Positions 7,076 to 25,593 of a stretch of DNA of 33,758 nucleotides are shown here, piece by piece (position 1 is the first letter of the stretch; every line of letters begins with the position of its first letter). The stretch spans positions 1-33,758 of the forward strand of contig JABSRH010000007.1 in NCBI GenBank assembly GCA_013215175.1. The letters are read 5' to 3'. The notes beneath the pieces are model-generated. The model was not told the origin of the DNA, searched no databases, and saw nothing but the letters and a program-made list of their open reading frames with translations. Position numbers and translations under genes: made by a program. The DNA is from Parvularculaceae bacterium (GTDB lineage: Bacteria > Pseudomonadota > Alphaproteobacteria > Caulobacterales > Parvularculaceae).

Positions 7076-7540
7076 TCAGTCTTGCCCCGGTTCGGGGCCA
7101 GGTTCGAATCCGCACCACAATGAGTGGCCAGATGCAAGCGATCTTAATGCCAAACGGAGTTTTGCAGCCGTCACAGACTTAGGGTCGACGGGCACTTCTT
7201 TGGCGTTGGCGAGGCGCGGATCAGCGCTATCGCACTGCTCGGTCGGCCCCAGGCGCACGATGAAATCAATGGCCATGGGCGGTGACTGGCGCACCTCCGC
7301 GATACCCATCCCTCGAAGATGCAGCAGAGGTCCGACAGCGGGCGTTTCAGCCCACCCCGTCCCGTCAAAGTTCACCAGATCGTCGGCAATCAGGCCCGTG
7401 CGCTGGTGGGGACAATGGGCGATCAATTCAGCGGCCAGTTGTGATTTTCCACTTCCCGTGGGGCCGACCAACAGCACTCCGCGCATGGCACCTTCTTCAT
7501 CGAGGGCAACGCCCAGCGCGGTACCATGCAGTGCGGTCAA
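7076..7540 (-). CDS. hprK: HPr kinase/phosphorylase, short alphaproteobacterial form
   Basis: A 154-residue protein corresponding only to the C-terminal kinase domain of HprK; the long N-terminal domain of Firmicute enzymes is absent, as usual in alphaproteobacteria. Walker A GPTGSGKS is at 26-33, LIADD follows in the next strand, and LHLRGMGIAEV matches the family's signature helix. It phosphorylates the regulatory serine of HPr, encoded two genes downstream. The start is TTG at 7540, overlapping the chvG stop as TTGA. This is an uncommon start codon but the overlap supports it. Confidence 0.93.
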   Translation of the reverse strand: MTALHGTALGVALDEEGAMRGVLLVGPTGSGKSQLAAELIAHCPHQRTGLIADDLVNFDGTGWAETPAVGPLLHLRGMGIAEVRQSPPMAIDFIVRLGPTEQCDSADPRLANAKEVPVDPKSVTAAKLRLALRSLASGHSLWCGFEPGPEPGQD

Positions 7541-9219
7541 TGAAGGCCGCCCTTTTGGATCGGCAATTCAAAGAGGAAGCGCGCGCCCGCCGGGCCGTCG
7601 ATGCCCAGGTCGCCCTTCTCGGGCATGATGTTTTCAGCCCAAATCTTGCCGCCGTGGCTTTCAATGATCTGCCGGGCGATGGCCAAGCCAAGGCCAGAGT
7701 TCGAGCCGAAGGTCGCGCCTTGCGGTCGAGACGTATAAAACCGATCGAAGATCGTCTCGAGATTGTCTTGCGGCACGCCAGGCCCCTCGTCGCTTACGGT
7801 TACGAGCAGACGAGACTGGCGCGAGCCGCCTTGTTTCTCAAGCGTCACCGTCACAGCGCTATTGCTGGGCGAGAAGCTCACCGCATTGTCGATCAAGTTG
7901 CGCAGCACACGGCCTAGCGCGGCTGGCGCACCGAACACCACAAAGTCACCCTTGGTATCATCCCAGAAGTTGACCCGAGGGCCACCAGCTTCCGTCACCG
8001 CCTGATAGCTCCGTGCGACATCGCCCACGAACTTCGAAGCGAGAATGCGGGTGCGAGTCTCTGTGGCCAGCTGGGCATCGAGACGGCTAGCGGACGAAAT
8101 GTCGGAGATCAGACGATCCATACGCTCCACGTCAAGAGCAATCACATCCAGCAGCCGCTGGCGTTGGCCATCAGTCTTGCACTTGTCGAGGGTCTCGATC
8201 GCGGACCGGATCGAAGTCAGTGGGTTCTTCAGCTCATGGCTGACGTCCGCCGCAAAACTATCGATCGACTCGATGCGATCAACCAGCGCCCTCGTCATGG
8301 TGCGGAAGGATCGACTGAGGCGACCCACATCATCCTTACGGTGATCAAGGTCAGGTAGCTTCACTTGTCCCGCGCGCCCCACCGAAGCACGGATACGCTC
8401 GGCTGCTGCTGACAACTGACGAAGCGGATGGGTCACCGCCGCCGTCAGGGCCATGGCGCAGAAGCTCGCGAGGCCAAAGGTCGTCAGCACCACAGGCAGG
8501 AGCAAGGCACGCACCCGTGCGGCCACCACATCAATGCCCTTAGACTCAGCCACAATGACACCGGCGATCTTGCCGTTCTCAAGAACGGGCAGACTGACCG
8601 AAGCCACGAGACGCCCATCAGCATCGTAGCGAATACGGTGCGCGTCACCGCCACTGCCGAGGAGAATGTCTTCCACCTCTTGTTCGATGGATTGGTTGGT
8701 GATCCGACCACGGATCGGCAATTCAAAGATGACCTTCTGCAGCCAACCGGAGAGGGTCTGATGGACGTTCTCCGGCATCGCCGACAGCGGCAAGGTCTCT
8801 GGGATGGGCACTGCCGCCGCTTCCAAGACTTCGGGCTGAGGGTGGACGGCCACGAACACCGGCGCTGCGCCGTCTCCGCGATAAAGAACCAAACGGCCGT
8901 CAAACCCAGCCGCCGTTGCCGCCAAGACCCGCTGCGCTTCCGCGCGCTTGATCAAGCAGCCCATGTCACCACAAGCCGCCAGGGCATCAGCACTCAGCGC
9001 GGCACGCGTGAGCACCGCTTGGCGCTCAACGATTTCCGTCCGTGCTGAGAGCAAGCCATCGCGATAGGCAGAGATCCCGAGAAACACGCAGGCCAACAGG
9101 ATGAAGCCAAGCGAGTTGCCGATCAGCAACGCACCGCCAAACCGACCAGTGCCGACTTTGGTGGCTTCGAGCTTCGTCCGTGTCGGGAACGACTCCCGCT
9201 CGGCCTTCCGCCCATCCAT
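7537..9219 (-). CDS. chvG: ChvG-type sensor histidine kinase
   Basis: A 560-residue membrane kinase when started at the ATG at 9219; the frame is open to 9267 but that would run into chvI. Order: basic N-terminus, membrane helix (about 29-50), periplasmic domain, second helix (about 238-262), HAMP, HisKA with DVSHELKNPL and phosphorylated His about 328, and HATPase_c with N-box NLIDNAV, DEGPGVP and GSNSGLGLAIA. ChvG/ExoS kinases sense envelope or acid conditions and phosphorylate ChvI. The periplasmic domain has a close cysteine pair (ACGDMGC, about residues 83 and 88) that could form a disulfide. It is followed, overlapping, by hprK. Confidence 0.95.
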   Translation of the reverse strand: MDGRKAERESFPTRTKLEATKVGTGRFGGALLIGNSLGFILLACVFLGISAYRDGLLSARTEIVERQAVLTRAALSADALAACGDMGCLIKRAEAQRVLAATAAGFDGRLVLYRGDGAAPVFVAVHPQPEVLEAAAVPIPETLPLSAMPENVHQTLSGWLQKVIFELPIRGRITNQSIEQEVEDILLGSGGDAHRIRYDADGRLVASVSLPVLENGKIAGVIVAESKGIDVVAARVRALLLPVVLTTFGLASFCAMALTAAVTHPLRQLSAAAERIRASVGRAGQVKLPDLDHRKDDVGRLSRSFRTMTRALVDRIESIDSFAADVSHELKNPLTSIRSAIETLDKCKTDGQRQRLLDVIALDVERMDRLISDISSASRLDAQLATETRTRILASKFVGDVARSYQAVTEAGGPRVNFWDDTKGDFVVFGAPAALGRVLRNLIDNAVSFSPSNSAVTVTLEKQGGSRQSRLLVTVSDEGPGVPQDNLETIFDRFYTSRPQGATFGSNSGLGLAIARQIIESHGGKIWAENIMPEKGDLGIDGPAGARFLFELPIQKGGLH

Positions 9220-9235
9220 GGCCCCTAGCGTGTGG

Positions 9236-9931
9236 CTAGTCGCACTTATACTTGTAGCCGACGCCATAAAGTGTCTCGATTCCGTCGAAGGTTTGATCGA
9301 TTTTCCCGAATTTCTTCCGGATACGTTTTATGTGACTATCGATGGTTCGGTCATCCACATAGACTTGATCATCGTACGCTGCATCCATCAGAGCGTCGCG
9401 CGATTTCACAAAGCCAGGACGCGCCGCCAGCGCATGAAGGATCATGAATTCGGTCACGGTGAGGGTCACACCCTCACCCTTCCAGCTGCAGGCATGCTGC
9501 GGCGGATCGAGCGTTAGGCTGCCGCGACGGAGAATTTGATCCGCATCTTCACGGGTGCCAGGCGTTGCGCTCGAGGCTCGGCGCAAAACGGCTTTGACAC
9601 GCTCAAGCAGCAATCGCTGGCTGAAGGGTTTCTTGACGTAGTCGTCCGCACCCATCGTCAGACCGAGCATCTCATCGAGCTCTTCGTCTTTCGACGTGAG
9701 GAAAATGAACGGCACGCTGGATTCGGCGCGCAACCGGCGCAGCAGCTCCACCCCGTCCATGCGAGGCATTTTTACATCCGAGACGACGAGATCAGGTGCC
9801 TTCGACAGAATACCATCGAGCGCCGAGGCGCCATCCGTGAAGGTCGAGACGCCGTAGCCTTCGCTCTCCAGAGCAATGGATACCGACGTCAGGATGTTCT
9901 CGTCATCATCGATCAAGGCGATCGACGCCAT
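9236..9931 (-). CDS. chvI: ChvI-type two-component response regulator
   Basis: A 231-residue OmpR/PhoB-class regulator. The receiver domain has the acidic cluster DDDEN, phosphorylated Asp52 in [12 protein letters not shown], conserved Thr/Ser in FLTSKDEE and Lys in YVKKPFS. The C-terminal winged helix contains [27 protein letters not shown] and [17 protein letters not shown]. The start is placed at 9931 because GGGAGAG precedes that ATG and the receiver starts directly there; the upstream extension lacks the fold. It is the first gene of the operon with chvG, hprK, EIIA and HPr. Confidence 0.95.
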
Positions 9932-10084
9932 GGCGGCTCTCCCACACAAACTGCCCCCGCGAGCCACCAGCTCTAGCAAGGAAAAGTCGGGGAGATGTTA
10001 ATGCATCACAGCAGATTGCGTTGCATCGGCGCTGGCCAGCAAGGCGAGCCAACGTTTGCTGCACTGCGACGTTCTGACCATCGG

Positions 10085-10135
10085 TTTCTCCTATGTTTCG
10101 AGCCATATGCCATAGCTGTTGCGCGATAGGAGAAA
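10085..10135 (+). promoter_or_regulatory. nested inverted repeats in the leader of the OxyR-like gene
   Basis: TTTCTCCTAT (10085-10094) and ATAGGAGAAA (10126-10135) are perfect 10-bp inverted repeats with a 31-base separation. Inside them CTATG (10091-10095) and CATAG (10111-10115) form a second inverted repeat. The right arm contains AGGAG, the ribosome-binding site of the gene starting at 10139. The ATAG/CTAT elements resemble OxyR half-sites, though not at the canonical spacing. It may be an autoregulatory operator in DNA, an RNA hairpin that hides the ribosome-binding site, or both. Confidence 0.5.
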
Positions 10136-10138
10136 GCG

Positions 10139-11071
10139 ATGGTTCGGCAGAACCCTGACATTACGCTGCGTCAGCTGAAATATCTCACGGCCCTTTCGGC
10201 CACCAACAGTTTCCGCCGCGGCGCTGAGCGTTGCGGCATCAGTCAACCGTCCTTCTCAGCCCAGATCCGGTTGCTCGAAGAGGCCTTGGGGGTCCAAGTC
10301 GCCGAGCGGGGCAATACTGCTGTCACCATGACACCCGCCGGCCGGGAGATCACGGCTGCCGCCGTCGAAGTTCTGGATAAAGTCGAAGGTATCCGCGCCC
10401 TTGCGCAGAAAGGGCCCCTTACGGGCATGCTACGCCTCGGCGTGAAGGCGACCCTGGGCCCGTATTTGATGCCTTACGTCGTGCGCCACCTGCACCGGAC
10501 CCACCCCGAGCTGCGGCTCTTTATTCGCGAGGGTCCACCGATCGAACTGGAGCGGGAGCTGGTGGAAGGCCTGCACGACGTGGTTCTCGCTCAATTGCCC
10601 CTCGGCTCAGCGGATCTCGAAACCCTGCGCCTCTTCCGCGAGCCGCTTCATCTGGCCGTGGCCTCCGACCACCCGCTGGCCGGGCAAGACACGTTCAGCA
10701 CCGAGGACTTGAACGGCCTCGACGTCCTGACGCTCAGCCCCGGCTATCACTTGCATGATCAGGTGGTGCAGCTGTGTGAGGAGCATCACGCTCGCCTGCG
10801 CCGTGACTATGAGGGCACCTCGCTCGACGCCCTGCGGCAGATGGTGGGCATGGGCCTTGGCGCCACCTTCCTGCCCGCGCTCTATATCGGTTCAGAGGTG
10901 CGAGATGCTGGCGATGTGGTCATTCTGAAACCGAAACGACCCGCCCTCAGCCGGTCGATCGGGCTTGCCTGGCGCAAGGGGTCGGGCGCCGTGGCAGCCT
11001 ATGAAGCCATCGCTGCGGCGATCACCACAGTGGTGCGCGAAGAGCTGACTGGCGTGGTCTCAGAGCGCTAA
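10139..11071 (+). CDS. OxyR-like LysR-family regulator lacking the peroxidatic cysteine
   Basis: A 310-residue LysR-type regulator with an N-terminal winged HTH (LRQLKYLTALSATNSFRRGAERCGISQPSFSAQI) and an effector domain that follows OxyR closely (TSLDALRQMVGMGLGATFLPAL, RSIGLAWRKGS). In E. coli OxyR the redox segment is GHCLRDQ with Cys199 and then Cys208. Here it reads GYHLHDQVVQLC, so Cys199 is replaced by His204 while the second cysteine survives as Cys213. Direct peroxide sensing by the classical disulfide is therefore unlikely. The start ATG has AGGAGA at good spacing. It is divergent from chvI and is followed by a putative structured RNA. The effector and targets are unknown. Confidence 0.9.
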   Translation: MVRQNPDITLRQLKYLTALSATNSFRRGAERCGISQPSFSAQIRLLEEALGVQVAERGNTAVTMTPAGREITAAAVEVLDKVEGIRALAQKGPLTGMLRLGVKATLGPYLMPYVVRHLHRTHPELRLFIREGPPIELERELVEGLHDVVLAQLPLGSADLETLRLFREPLHLAVASDHPLAGQDTFSTEDLNGLDVLTLSPGYHLHDQVVQLCEEHHARLRRDYEGTSLDALRQMVGMGLGATFLPALYIGSEVRDAGDVVILKPKRPALSRSIGLAWRKGSGAVAAYEAIAAAITTVVREELTGVVSER

Positions 11072-11111
11072 AATCCAACGCGATTTCTTACCATCCCGCC
11101 AATAGCATTTA

Positions 11112-11346
11112 CCTATGCGGGTTGCGGCAGGGCATTGGATAAACGATGTAGTGCGCACCGAGGGAAGCGGCCTTGCTCCAAGCCCCCCCTGCCCCAGCAC
11201 GCAGAGCAGGGCCGACTTCTCCGGTTGTTTATTAGTCTCGCTCTGTTGGCTGCCGAGATGTCCCAGCTGCGCAACCAACAAGACATGACGCCGTGGAAGT
11301 TGAAGGTCTGCGTGGTATTCCCTTCAACTTCCGCGGCGTTTTTTCT
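11112..11346 (+). ncRNA. putative structured non-coding RNA, 6S-like architecture
   Basis: Between the OxyR-like gene and phhB lies a segment that folds end to end. GGTTGCG (11120-11126) pairs with CGCAACC (11270-11276), extended by GGGCAT with ATGTCC. A long apical hairpin is formed by about 11163-11178 (GGGAAGCGGCCTTGCTC region) with 11203-11219. The two are separated by a large internal bubble. A very strong terminator follows at 11288. The closing stem, open bubble and apical stem of about 160 nt resemble 6S RNA, but no diagnostic 6S sequence was recognised and another regulatory RNA is equally possible. A weak promoter may be TTACCA with TACCTA ending near 11116. No convincing protein is encoded here. 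Confidence 0.5.
11288..11346 (+). terminator. very strong rho-independent terminator
   Basis: A 19-bp stem (11288-11306 with 11321-11339, one G-T wobble) starting ACGCCG and ending CGGCGT, with a 14-base loop, is followed by TTTTTT and CTTCT. The T-run lies only on the plus-strand side. It ends either the putative RNA gene or the OxyR-like transcript, and stops short of the converging phhB gene. Confidence 0.92.
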
Positions 11347-11362
11347 TCTCTGATACCGCGGC

Positions 11363-11653
11363 TTAAGGCCGGATCGAGTCGATGAACGTGGCCATGGCCA
11401 CATCGCGATCCGACAGGCCATCAGCATCATGGGTTGTCAGCGTCACTTCCACACGATTGTAAACGTTGAACCACTCTGGGTGGTGGTCGTGCTGCTCAGC
11501 GAACAGCGCGACTTGGTTCATCAGCGCCCAGGCTTGCTTGAAGTTGCCACAAACGATTTTCGTGAAAGCGGCATCCTTGCCATCGACCTCCGACCATTGA
11601 GGGTGGGCGCTGAAAAAGTCTTGGCGGGCTTGAGGGGTAAGTTTTTCGACCAT
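11363..11653 (-). CDS. phhB: pterin-4a-carbinolamine dehydratase
   Basis: A 96-residue PCD/DCoH protein, standard length. The active-site motif EQHDHHPEWFNVYNRVEVTL and the C-terminal THDADGLSDRDVAMA are characteristic. It dehydrates 4a-hydroxytetrahydrobiopterin formed by aromatic amino-acid hydroxylases, regenerating the cofactor. No phenylalanine hydroxylase gene is in the window; the aromatic biosynthesis gene pheA lies about 7 kb away and is not linked. The gene stands alone, divergent from the DUF1036 protein gene. Confidence 0.95.
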   Translation of the reverse strand: MVEKLTPQARQDFFSAHPQWSEVDGKDAAFTKIVCGNFKQAWALMNQVALFAEQHDHHPEWFNVYNRVEVTLTTHDADGLSDRDVAMATFIDSIRP

Positions 11654-25430: not shown

Positions 25431-25526
25431 CAGGAGAGCCGCGCGGACGTTGCCCTCGCCAACCCGGTCAGGTCCGGAAGGAAGCAGCCGTAACGAGTTC
25501 CGTAGCGGGTCGTGTTGGCTTTCCGC
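25431..25526 (+). ncRNA. ffs: signal recognition particle 4.5S RNA
   Basis: The diagnostic core GGTCAGGTCCGGAAGGAAGC is present around 25466-25486, the domain IV loop that binds Ffh. Distal ends pair as GGAGAGCC (25433-25440) with GGCTTTCC (25517-25524, one G-U), giving the closed hairpin of a bacterial small SRP RNA of about 95 nt. A weak promoter may be TTGCGC (25397-25402) with an AATATG 17 bases on. The ends are approximate. It works with Ffh and FtsY to deliver proteins to the membrane. Confidence 0.95.
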
Positions 25527-25593
25527 CTTATATCACTAGGTGATTTTTCAGCTGTTCTAGCATCACTCGACAGATGGCTGCTTTTCCCATACG

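Follow-up and report, generated by a model that had tools for sequence, protein, structure and literature searches.

What is encoded in the 291 nucleotides (nt) between a gene for an OxyR-like regulator of the LysR type (10139-11071, plus strand) and phhB (11363-11653, minus strand) in a Parvularculaceae bacterium (assembly GCA_013215175.1, contig JABSRH010000007.1)? The whole stretch of DNA that we analysed, henceforth the window, is 33,758 nt long and is contig 290 of a 3.08 Mb draft genome (322 contigs, 89.65% complete; coded G000, with other genomes coded likewise). A preliminary description, made from the sequence alone, placed an unannotated structured RNA gene at 11112-11346, likened its layout to that of 6S RNA, suggested as an alternative a regulatory RNA controlled by the OxyR-like factor, as OxyS is beside oxyR, and held it to be a real RNA gene rather than an untranslated tail. 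Our analysis points to a predicted stand-alone gene for a new non-coding small RNA (sRNA) of about 190 nt, linked to the LysR-type regulator, a reading that we consider probable. It draws on an OxyR-type box and the linkage of that box to the regulator gene, on the fold, on an intrinsic terminator, on the absence of a reading frame shared with relatives and on the presence of an Hfq gene in the genome.

The box, ATAGCATTTACCTAT (11102-11116), lies 30 nt past the stop codon of the regulator gene and is followed by GCGGG and then TTGCGG; its form, ATAG-N7-CTAT, is the one given for the unit of the OxyR site in excerpts of two published studies (PMC5720770, PMC5002191). Of the ten genus genomes, eight have an orthologue of the regulator (E-value up to 1e-80), and five of these eight carry the box within 150 nt downstream, at 30 (G000), 26 (G004), 14 (G009), 40 (G002) and 48 nt (G005) past the stop codon. 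In G008 boxes stand 453 and 580 nt downstream of the orthologue, with one more upstream, and in G001 and G007 a box was counted only upstream. The box together with GG-N-TTGC recurs at the equivalent place in the congeners G004, G009 and G002 (the G005 box is without TTG), and at equal spacing these three have GTATCA, ATATCA and CATATG, respectively, at the -10 position. We searched 398 genomes of the order, an even sample of a larger group, for the 24-nt pattern ATAG-N7-CTAT-NNGG-N-TTGC, which occurred nine times in eight genomes, four times at this very spot, against two matches for the reversed control; a pattern one base shorter gave ten matches in 62 genomes of the family, five of them downstream of the regulator (counting G008), and none for its control. 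We also counted boxes at 24 distinct orthologous regulator loci (26 rows with two duplicates, L104 = L067 and L105 = L068; loci L096-L102, at 40% identity or less, were excluded). The 24 come from this family and from outside it, and at fifteen of them a box stands no farther than 200 nt upstream or 150 nt downstream (eight upstream and eight downstream, one locus having both), compared with 0.23% of mononucleotide-shuffled 365-nt stretches, and the box is thus very probably the regulator's own site.

Among NCBIfam models the regulator is best matched by OxyR, at 202.5 bits and so under the equivalog cut-off of 329, and the closest solved structure is likewise an OxyR (4x6g, E-value 4.1e-51). 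Aligned to a separate OxyR of the same genome, which has both cysteines and is encoded on contig C79 divergently from a peroxiredoxin-like gene, it has histidine at the position of C199 and cysteine at that of C208. None of the 24 distinct orthologous loci has cysteine at the C199 position (His 18, Ala 3, and Gln, Arg and Tyr once each), and 23 of them keep the resolving Cys208. Lacking the peroxidatic cysteine, this OxyR paralogue probably does not sense H2O2 as OxyR does, and we infer that it would respond to another signal. This Cys199-less branch occurs in the family, in Rhodobacteraceae and in one metagenome-assembled genome of Sphingomonadales. Two orthologues from Rhodobacteraceae (L093 and L094) have alanine at C199 and a box whose first base is 18 nt ahead of the start codon assigned to them; the branch therefore reaches beyond this order.

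These data bear on the foremost alternative, namely that the RNA is a true OxyS analogue answering to the OxyR encoded on C79 instead of the paralogue beside it. The genome does encode an OxyR with both cysteines, the box has the classical OxyR motif as the excerpts cited above present it, and its centre lies about 48 nt before the inferred RNA start, a distance to be set beside the boxes of E. coli oxyS, which an excerpt of PMC5002191 places with their centres at -66, -44 and -35. By contrast, 15 of the 24 loci of the Cys199-less paralogue have the box near the gene, which points to the paralogue as the binder, and the box here is a single ATAG-N7-CTAT unit as opposed to the two-unit OxyR site. 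We consider this explanation unlikely, and place it first among those that compete with a stand-alone gene under the neighbouring regulator.

The stretch from 11112 to 11346 folds with a minimum free energy of -107.3 kcal/mol (z -5.3, none of 200 shuffles as good), and that from 11144 to 11345 reaches z -6.1, again with none of 200 shuffles as good. We scanned both strands of the window in 562 stretches of 200 nt with 30 shuffles each, of which 560 formed a regular grid and two, starting at 11144 on either strand, were added by hand. The top three were 11144 minus (z -6.3), 11144 plus (z -6.1) and 11161 plus (z -5.5), the last of which ranks first among the 560 grid stretches. Given that both strands fold alike, folding alone gives no direction, which is therefore read from the T-run and the promoter. 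Specifically, the terminator stem has 20 pairs, two of them G-U (11287-11306 with 11321-11340), and leads into TTTTTT (11339-11344) on the plus strand; read on the minus strand, the stem has no T-run after it. A start of the RNA at about 11154-11158 is most likely, and the fold from 11154 consists of three hairpins in a row (Table 1). The long hairpin first described is recovered as the 5' hairpin of this row, and the 19-base-pair terminator with its T-run as the 20-pair stem and six T's; the rod with a large internal bubble gives way to the three hairpins, and the claimed pairing of the ends over about 16 bases is not borne out, as it needs about 11116-11128, a segment used to close the ends in the fold of 11112-11346 that would in our reading be promoter DNA and not RNA. 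The originally proposed span is thus kept as a structured unit, with coordinates trimmed for the RNA to about 11154-11344.

Table 1. Coordinates (positions in the window), strand and basis of the features at the regulator-phhB locus.
Feature	Position	Strand	Basis
One-mismatch OxyR-type box, upstream of the regulator	10080-10094	not assigned	motif scan
One-mismatch OxyR-type box, overlapping the regulator start codon	10126-10140	not assigned	motif scan
OxyR-like LysR-type regulator, 310 amino acids	10139-11071	+	NCBIfam score, structure match, alignment to the G000 OxyR
ATAG-N7-CTAT box of OxyR type, putative site of activation of the RNA	11102-11116	not assigned	motif scan, relatives
-35-like TTGCGG	11122-11127	+	TTGC kept in G004, G002 and G009
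Weak -10-like GATGTA, 17 nt 3' of TTGCGG	11145-11150	+	predicted from sequence
Predicted small RNA, about 190 nt	11154-11344	+	predicted start; end at the T-run
Hairpin 1	11155-11228	+	fold prediction
C-rich loop CCCCCCCTGCCCC	11183-11195	+	unpaired probability of the C-runs, 0.82 and 0.77
Hairpin 2, weaker	11235-11284	+	fold prediction
Intrinsic terminator, 20-pair stem and six T's	11287-11344	+	fold prediction, sequence
phhB (4a-hydroxytetrahydrobiopterin dehydratase), convergent neighbour	11363-11653	-	NF002018, 109.6 bits (cut-off 108)

The assertion that this is a real RNA gene and not an untranslated tail finds support in the predicted promoter of its own, the fold and the terminator. 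Under the contrary explanation the regulator mRNA would simply end in this stretch, as a long 3' untranslated tail with its terminator, the box would be an internal autoregulatory site and there would be no separate RNA. Consistent with a tail, the stretch directly follows the regulator on the same strand, the plus strand holds between the stop codon and 11287 one weak terminator-like site (5 pairs, 11210-11226), and a box stands upstream of the regulator, as for autoregulation, in 8 of the 24 orthologous loci. Against it, a promoter-spaced box with TTGC is kept past the stop codon in G000, G004, G002 and G009, the downstream box is followed by an open reading frame (ORF) in G009 and G005, and 130 nt of structure would be unneeded ahead of a plain terminator. 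We regard a mere tail as improbable, and rank it second among the competing explanations.

At the equivalent place after the box, G004 and G002 also have a folded, terminator-ended stretch (fold z -5.0 in G004). Whole stretches were aligned from just after TTGC, promoter spacer included, and the local alignment of G004 with G002 scored 32, against a maximum of 25 in 200 mononucleotide shuffles. Short words recur in all three genomes: CGAGG lies 42, 47 and 45 nt past the box in G000, G004 and G002, and GCCCC 65, 67 and 65 nt past it, respectively. These are two 5-mers whose distance from the box varies by no more than 5 nt among the three genomes, where 0.018 such words were expected, with as many in 0.15% of shuffles, for a word length and a tolerance picked after the sequences had been viewed. 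The C-runs in the loops of hairpin 1 are predicted to be mostly unpaired (probability 0.77-0.82 in G000, 0.96 in G004 and 0.92-0.99 in G002), and a C-run in the stem of G002 to be paired (unpaired 0.13). A covariance model of hairpin 1 built from G004 and G002 matched four of the 62 family genomes at an E-value of up to 1, namely the two training genomes, G001 (E-value 0.40) and G014 (E-value 0.99); the G001 match was rejected, its locus being without an OxyR-type box and coding-like by reading.

Besides that choice of word length and tolerance after the fact, several results weigh against a conserved sRNA gene with its own promoter. At the promoter, GATGTA is a poor -10 element, a sigma-70 consensus scan did not list the box-linked promoter or its TTGCGG, and the looser pattern ATAG-N7-CTAT-N5-TTG gave nine matches in the ten genus genomes compared with six for its control. 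A simple terminator scan missed the 20-pair terminator, probably because its loop exceeds the length that the scan permits, and returned as its sole plus-strand site in this stretch the weak 5-pair one inside hairpin 1. The fold in G002 is modest (z -2.2, 3 of 200 shuffles as good), and for the local alignments of the G000 body with G004 and G002 as many as 54 and 53 of 200 shuffles, respectively, were as good. The hairpin-1 model misses the G000 hairpin, giving it 7.2 bits when a place within the regulator gene scores 11.3 bits. No pair is changed on both sides in the two-row alignment of G004 and G002; a three-row RNAalifold consensus has such changes in 7 of 29 pairs, but suffers from a positive covariation term, numerous broken pairs and a poor alignment, and was not taken as support. 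Finally, an ORF comes after the downstream box in G009 (140 amino acids, aa) and in G005 (108 aa). A common origin of the G000 RNA body and those of the congeners would thus rest on place, promoter, terminator and short matches. Comparison of this gap in relatives, which the preliminary description had put forward as a check, hence speaks for a conserved promoter, with compensatory changes in the stems not convincingly shown.

The ORFs of G009 and G005 are also the starting point of a further explanation, in which the transcript is the mRNA, perhaps decayed, of a small protein. Within the predicted RNA, GAGGGA stands 7 nt ahead of a TTG that opens a 20-codon frame at 11173, and the same explanation is favoured by other sites of G000 that precede ORFs. 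The looser pattern has three matches in this genome besides the present locus, one on C46 and two on C278 (four in all, against one for the control). The C46 site (C46:18177-18199, L114) also matches the strict box-TTGC pattern in full, and an ORF of 111 aa begins 77 nt after it; one of the two C278 sites is followed at 32 nt by an ORF of 94 aa. By reading of their translations, the two ORFs have signal-like starts. The C46 and C278 sites are placed as promoters could be, and that on C46 is likely a second target of the regulator, while the C278 sites are weak, given that the looser pattern is not clearly above its control. A small peptide shared across G000, G004 and G002 was not found, as no frames were alike (46, 28 and 120 of 200 shuffles were as good) and the frames listed vary in length and start. 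With this evidence on either side, we doubt that the transcript is a small-protein mRNA and put it third.

Some further arrangements were observed around these boxes. The two boxes on C278 (5063-5134; L116 and L117) are 49 nt apart and lie between a LysR-type-like gene and the exported-looking 94-aa ORF. In G008 (L103) and G005 (L104) a type I secretion ABC transporter-like gene and a partner come after the orthologous regulator, and in G005 the 108-aa ORF lies between that regulator and the type I secretion-like genes.

We also asked whether the RNA belongs to a catalogued family. None of the 4227 Rfam families matched this stretch at the gathering score, the only match being to signal recognition particle RNA elsewhere in the window (the bacterial small form, 25432-25528, plus strand, 57.1 bits). 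At an E-value of up to 10 only microRNA models matched, on the terminator stem and on the C-rich part; the best of these, on the terminator stem, scored 22.5 bits against a cut-off of 93, and they were judged to be chance matches. The covariance search for which the preliminary description had called was thus run and gave no fitting family. No match in sequence or structure was found to OxyS, a family that is presumably among the 4227 scanned, and among the families scanned no alphaproteobacterial sRNA family matched, either here or in L063 and L066. A DNA search of 61 genomes with the gap sequence returned only the window itself (1 of 61). As regards 6S RNA, its model (RF00013) had no match in 11050-11380 at an E-value of up to 10. 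It matched 58 of the 61 genomes at an E-value of up to 0.1 (46 above the cut-off), those without a match being G000, G016 and G017, drafts of 78-90% completeness. No 6S match was found in the 322 contigs of G000, which probably reflects an assembly gap because the genome is 89.65% complete. In G004 and G009 the 6S match lies about 250 kb and about 244 kb, respectively, from the regulator-phhB gap, and gene order is kept in both. Three separate hairpins from 11154 take the place of the closed stem, central bubble and terminal loop of 6S. We therefore reject the 6S identity as having next to no chance of being right, since in its favour stands the approximate layout first described and against it stand the missing Rfam match, the location of 6S elsewhere in G004 and G009 and an end pairing that takes in putative promoter DNA.

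For the stand-alone sRNA gene that we favour, we infer the start point, the activation by the neighbouring regulator and a base-pairing function as follows. The OxyR-like LysR regulator, whose gene immediately precedes that of the RNA on the plus strand, would bind the box and, once bound, activate transcription from about 11154-11158, and the transcript would terminate at 11344. Hairpin 1 would present the unpaired C-rich loop, which would probably pair with G-rich ribosome-binding regions of target mRNAs; such pairing would change their translation or stability. A gene for Hfq is present in the genome.

OxyS of Escherichia coli is a 109-nt RNA encoded divergently from oxyR. The present locus resembles that system in having a predicted sRNA gene beside an OxyR-family regulator and ATAG-N7-CTAT ahead of the inferred promoter (OxyS as described in an excerpt of PMC5002191), and differs from it in that the RNA is on the same strand and downstream of the regulator, is about 190 nt long, has a single box and no Rfam match, and is accompanied by a regulator without C199. 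The early suggestion that the OxyR-like factor controls a regulatory RNA here thus holds in so far as a conserved OxyR-type site lies before the inferred promoter beside an OxyR-family gene, and does not extend to direct equivalence with OxyS. Another relevant system is VtlR/LsrB of Rhizobiales, an OxyR-related LysR regulator described in excerpts of PMC7486931 and PMC11975290 as directly activating the sRNAs AbcR1 and VrsA and a gene for a small hypothetical protein. Here too a LysR regulator of the OxyR-related line is proposed to activate an sRNA. However, the VtlR box is described there as GCAT-N3-TG-N3-T, unlike ATAG-N7-CTAT, and LsrB as unique to Rhizobiales, and on these descriptions VtlR was rejected as the regulator; moreover, none of the Rfam families scanned matched the present RNA. 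Among Caulobacter sRNAs, GsrN binds G-rich mRNA through a C-rich 5' loop that is exposed, and is tied to survival of peroxide (excerpt of PMC5869019); the predicted C-rich 5' loop in an alphaproteobacterial sRNA is similar by that description, and the LysR-type box sets the present RNA apart. ChvR is an alphaproteobacterial sRNA named after ChvG/ChvI (excerpt of PMC6237742). Genes for a ChvG/ChvI-like sensor kinase and response regulator, judged from translations, lie at 7537-9979 on the minus strand, divergent from the OxyR-like gene, a likeness to ChvR in gene context alone; the regulator gene stands between them and the RNA.

Taken together, the RNA may work in the manner of OxyS/OxyR or of the VtlR sRNAs, yet by the tests made it is a member of neither. 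Among the matches listed in one literature collection, none described an sRNA from this genus or linked an sRNA to an OxyR that lacks Cys199. A wider proposal, which we put forward only tentatively, is that in part of the genus the Cys199-less OxyR branch has an OxyR-type promoter just past its own gene with outputs that vary between a structured RNA and proteins, that the RNA founds an unlisted sRNA family, and that the regulator has kept the OxyR DNA site while changing its signal. Given that promoter site, regulator and RNA adjoin, the proposed circuit is open to direct testing. Close relatives with different outputs behind a single conserved site would offer a natural case of an sRNA gene replacing a protein gene or being replaced by one, and the Cys199-less OxyR branch raises the question of what that branch senses.
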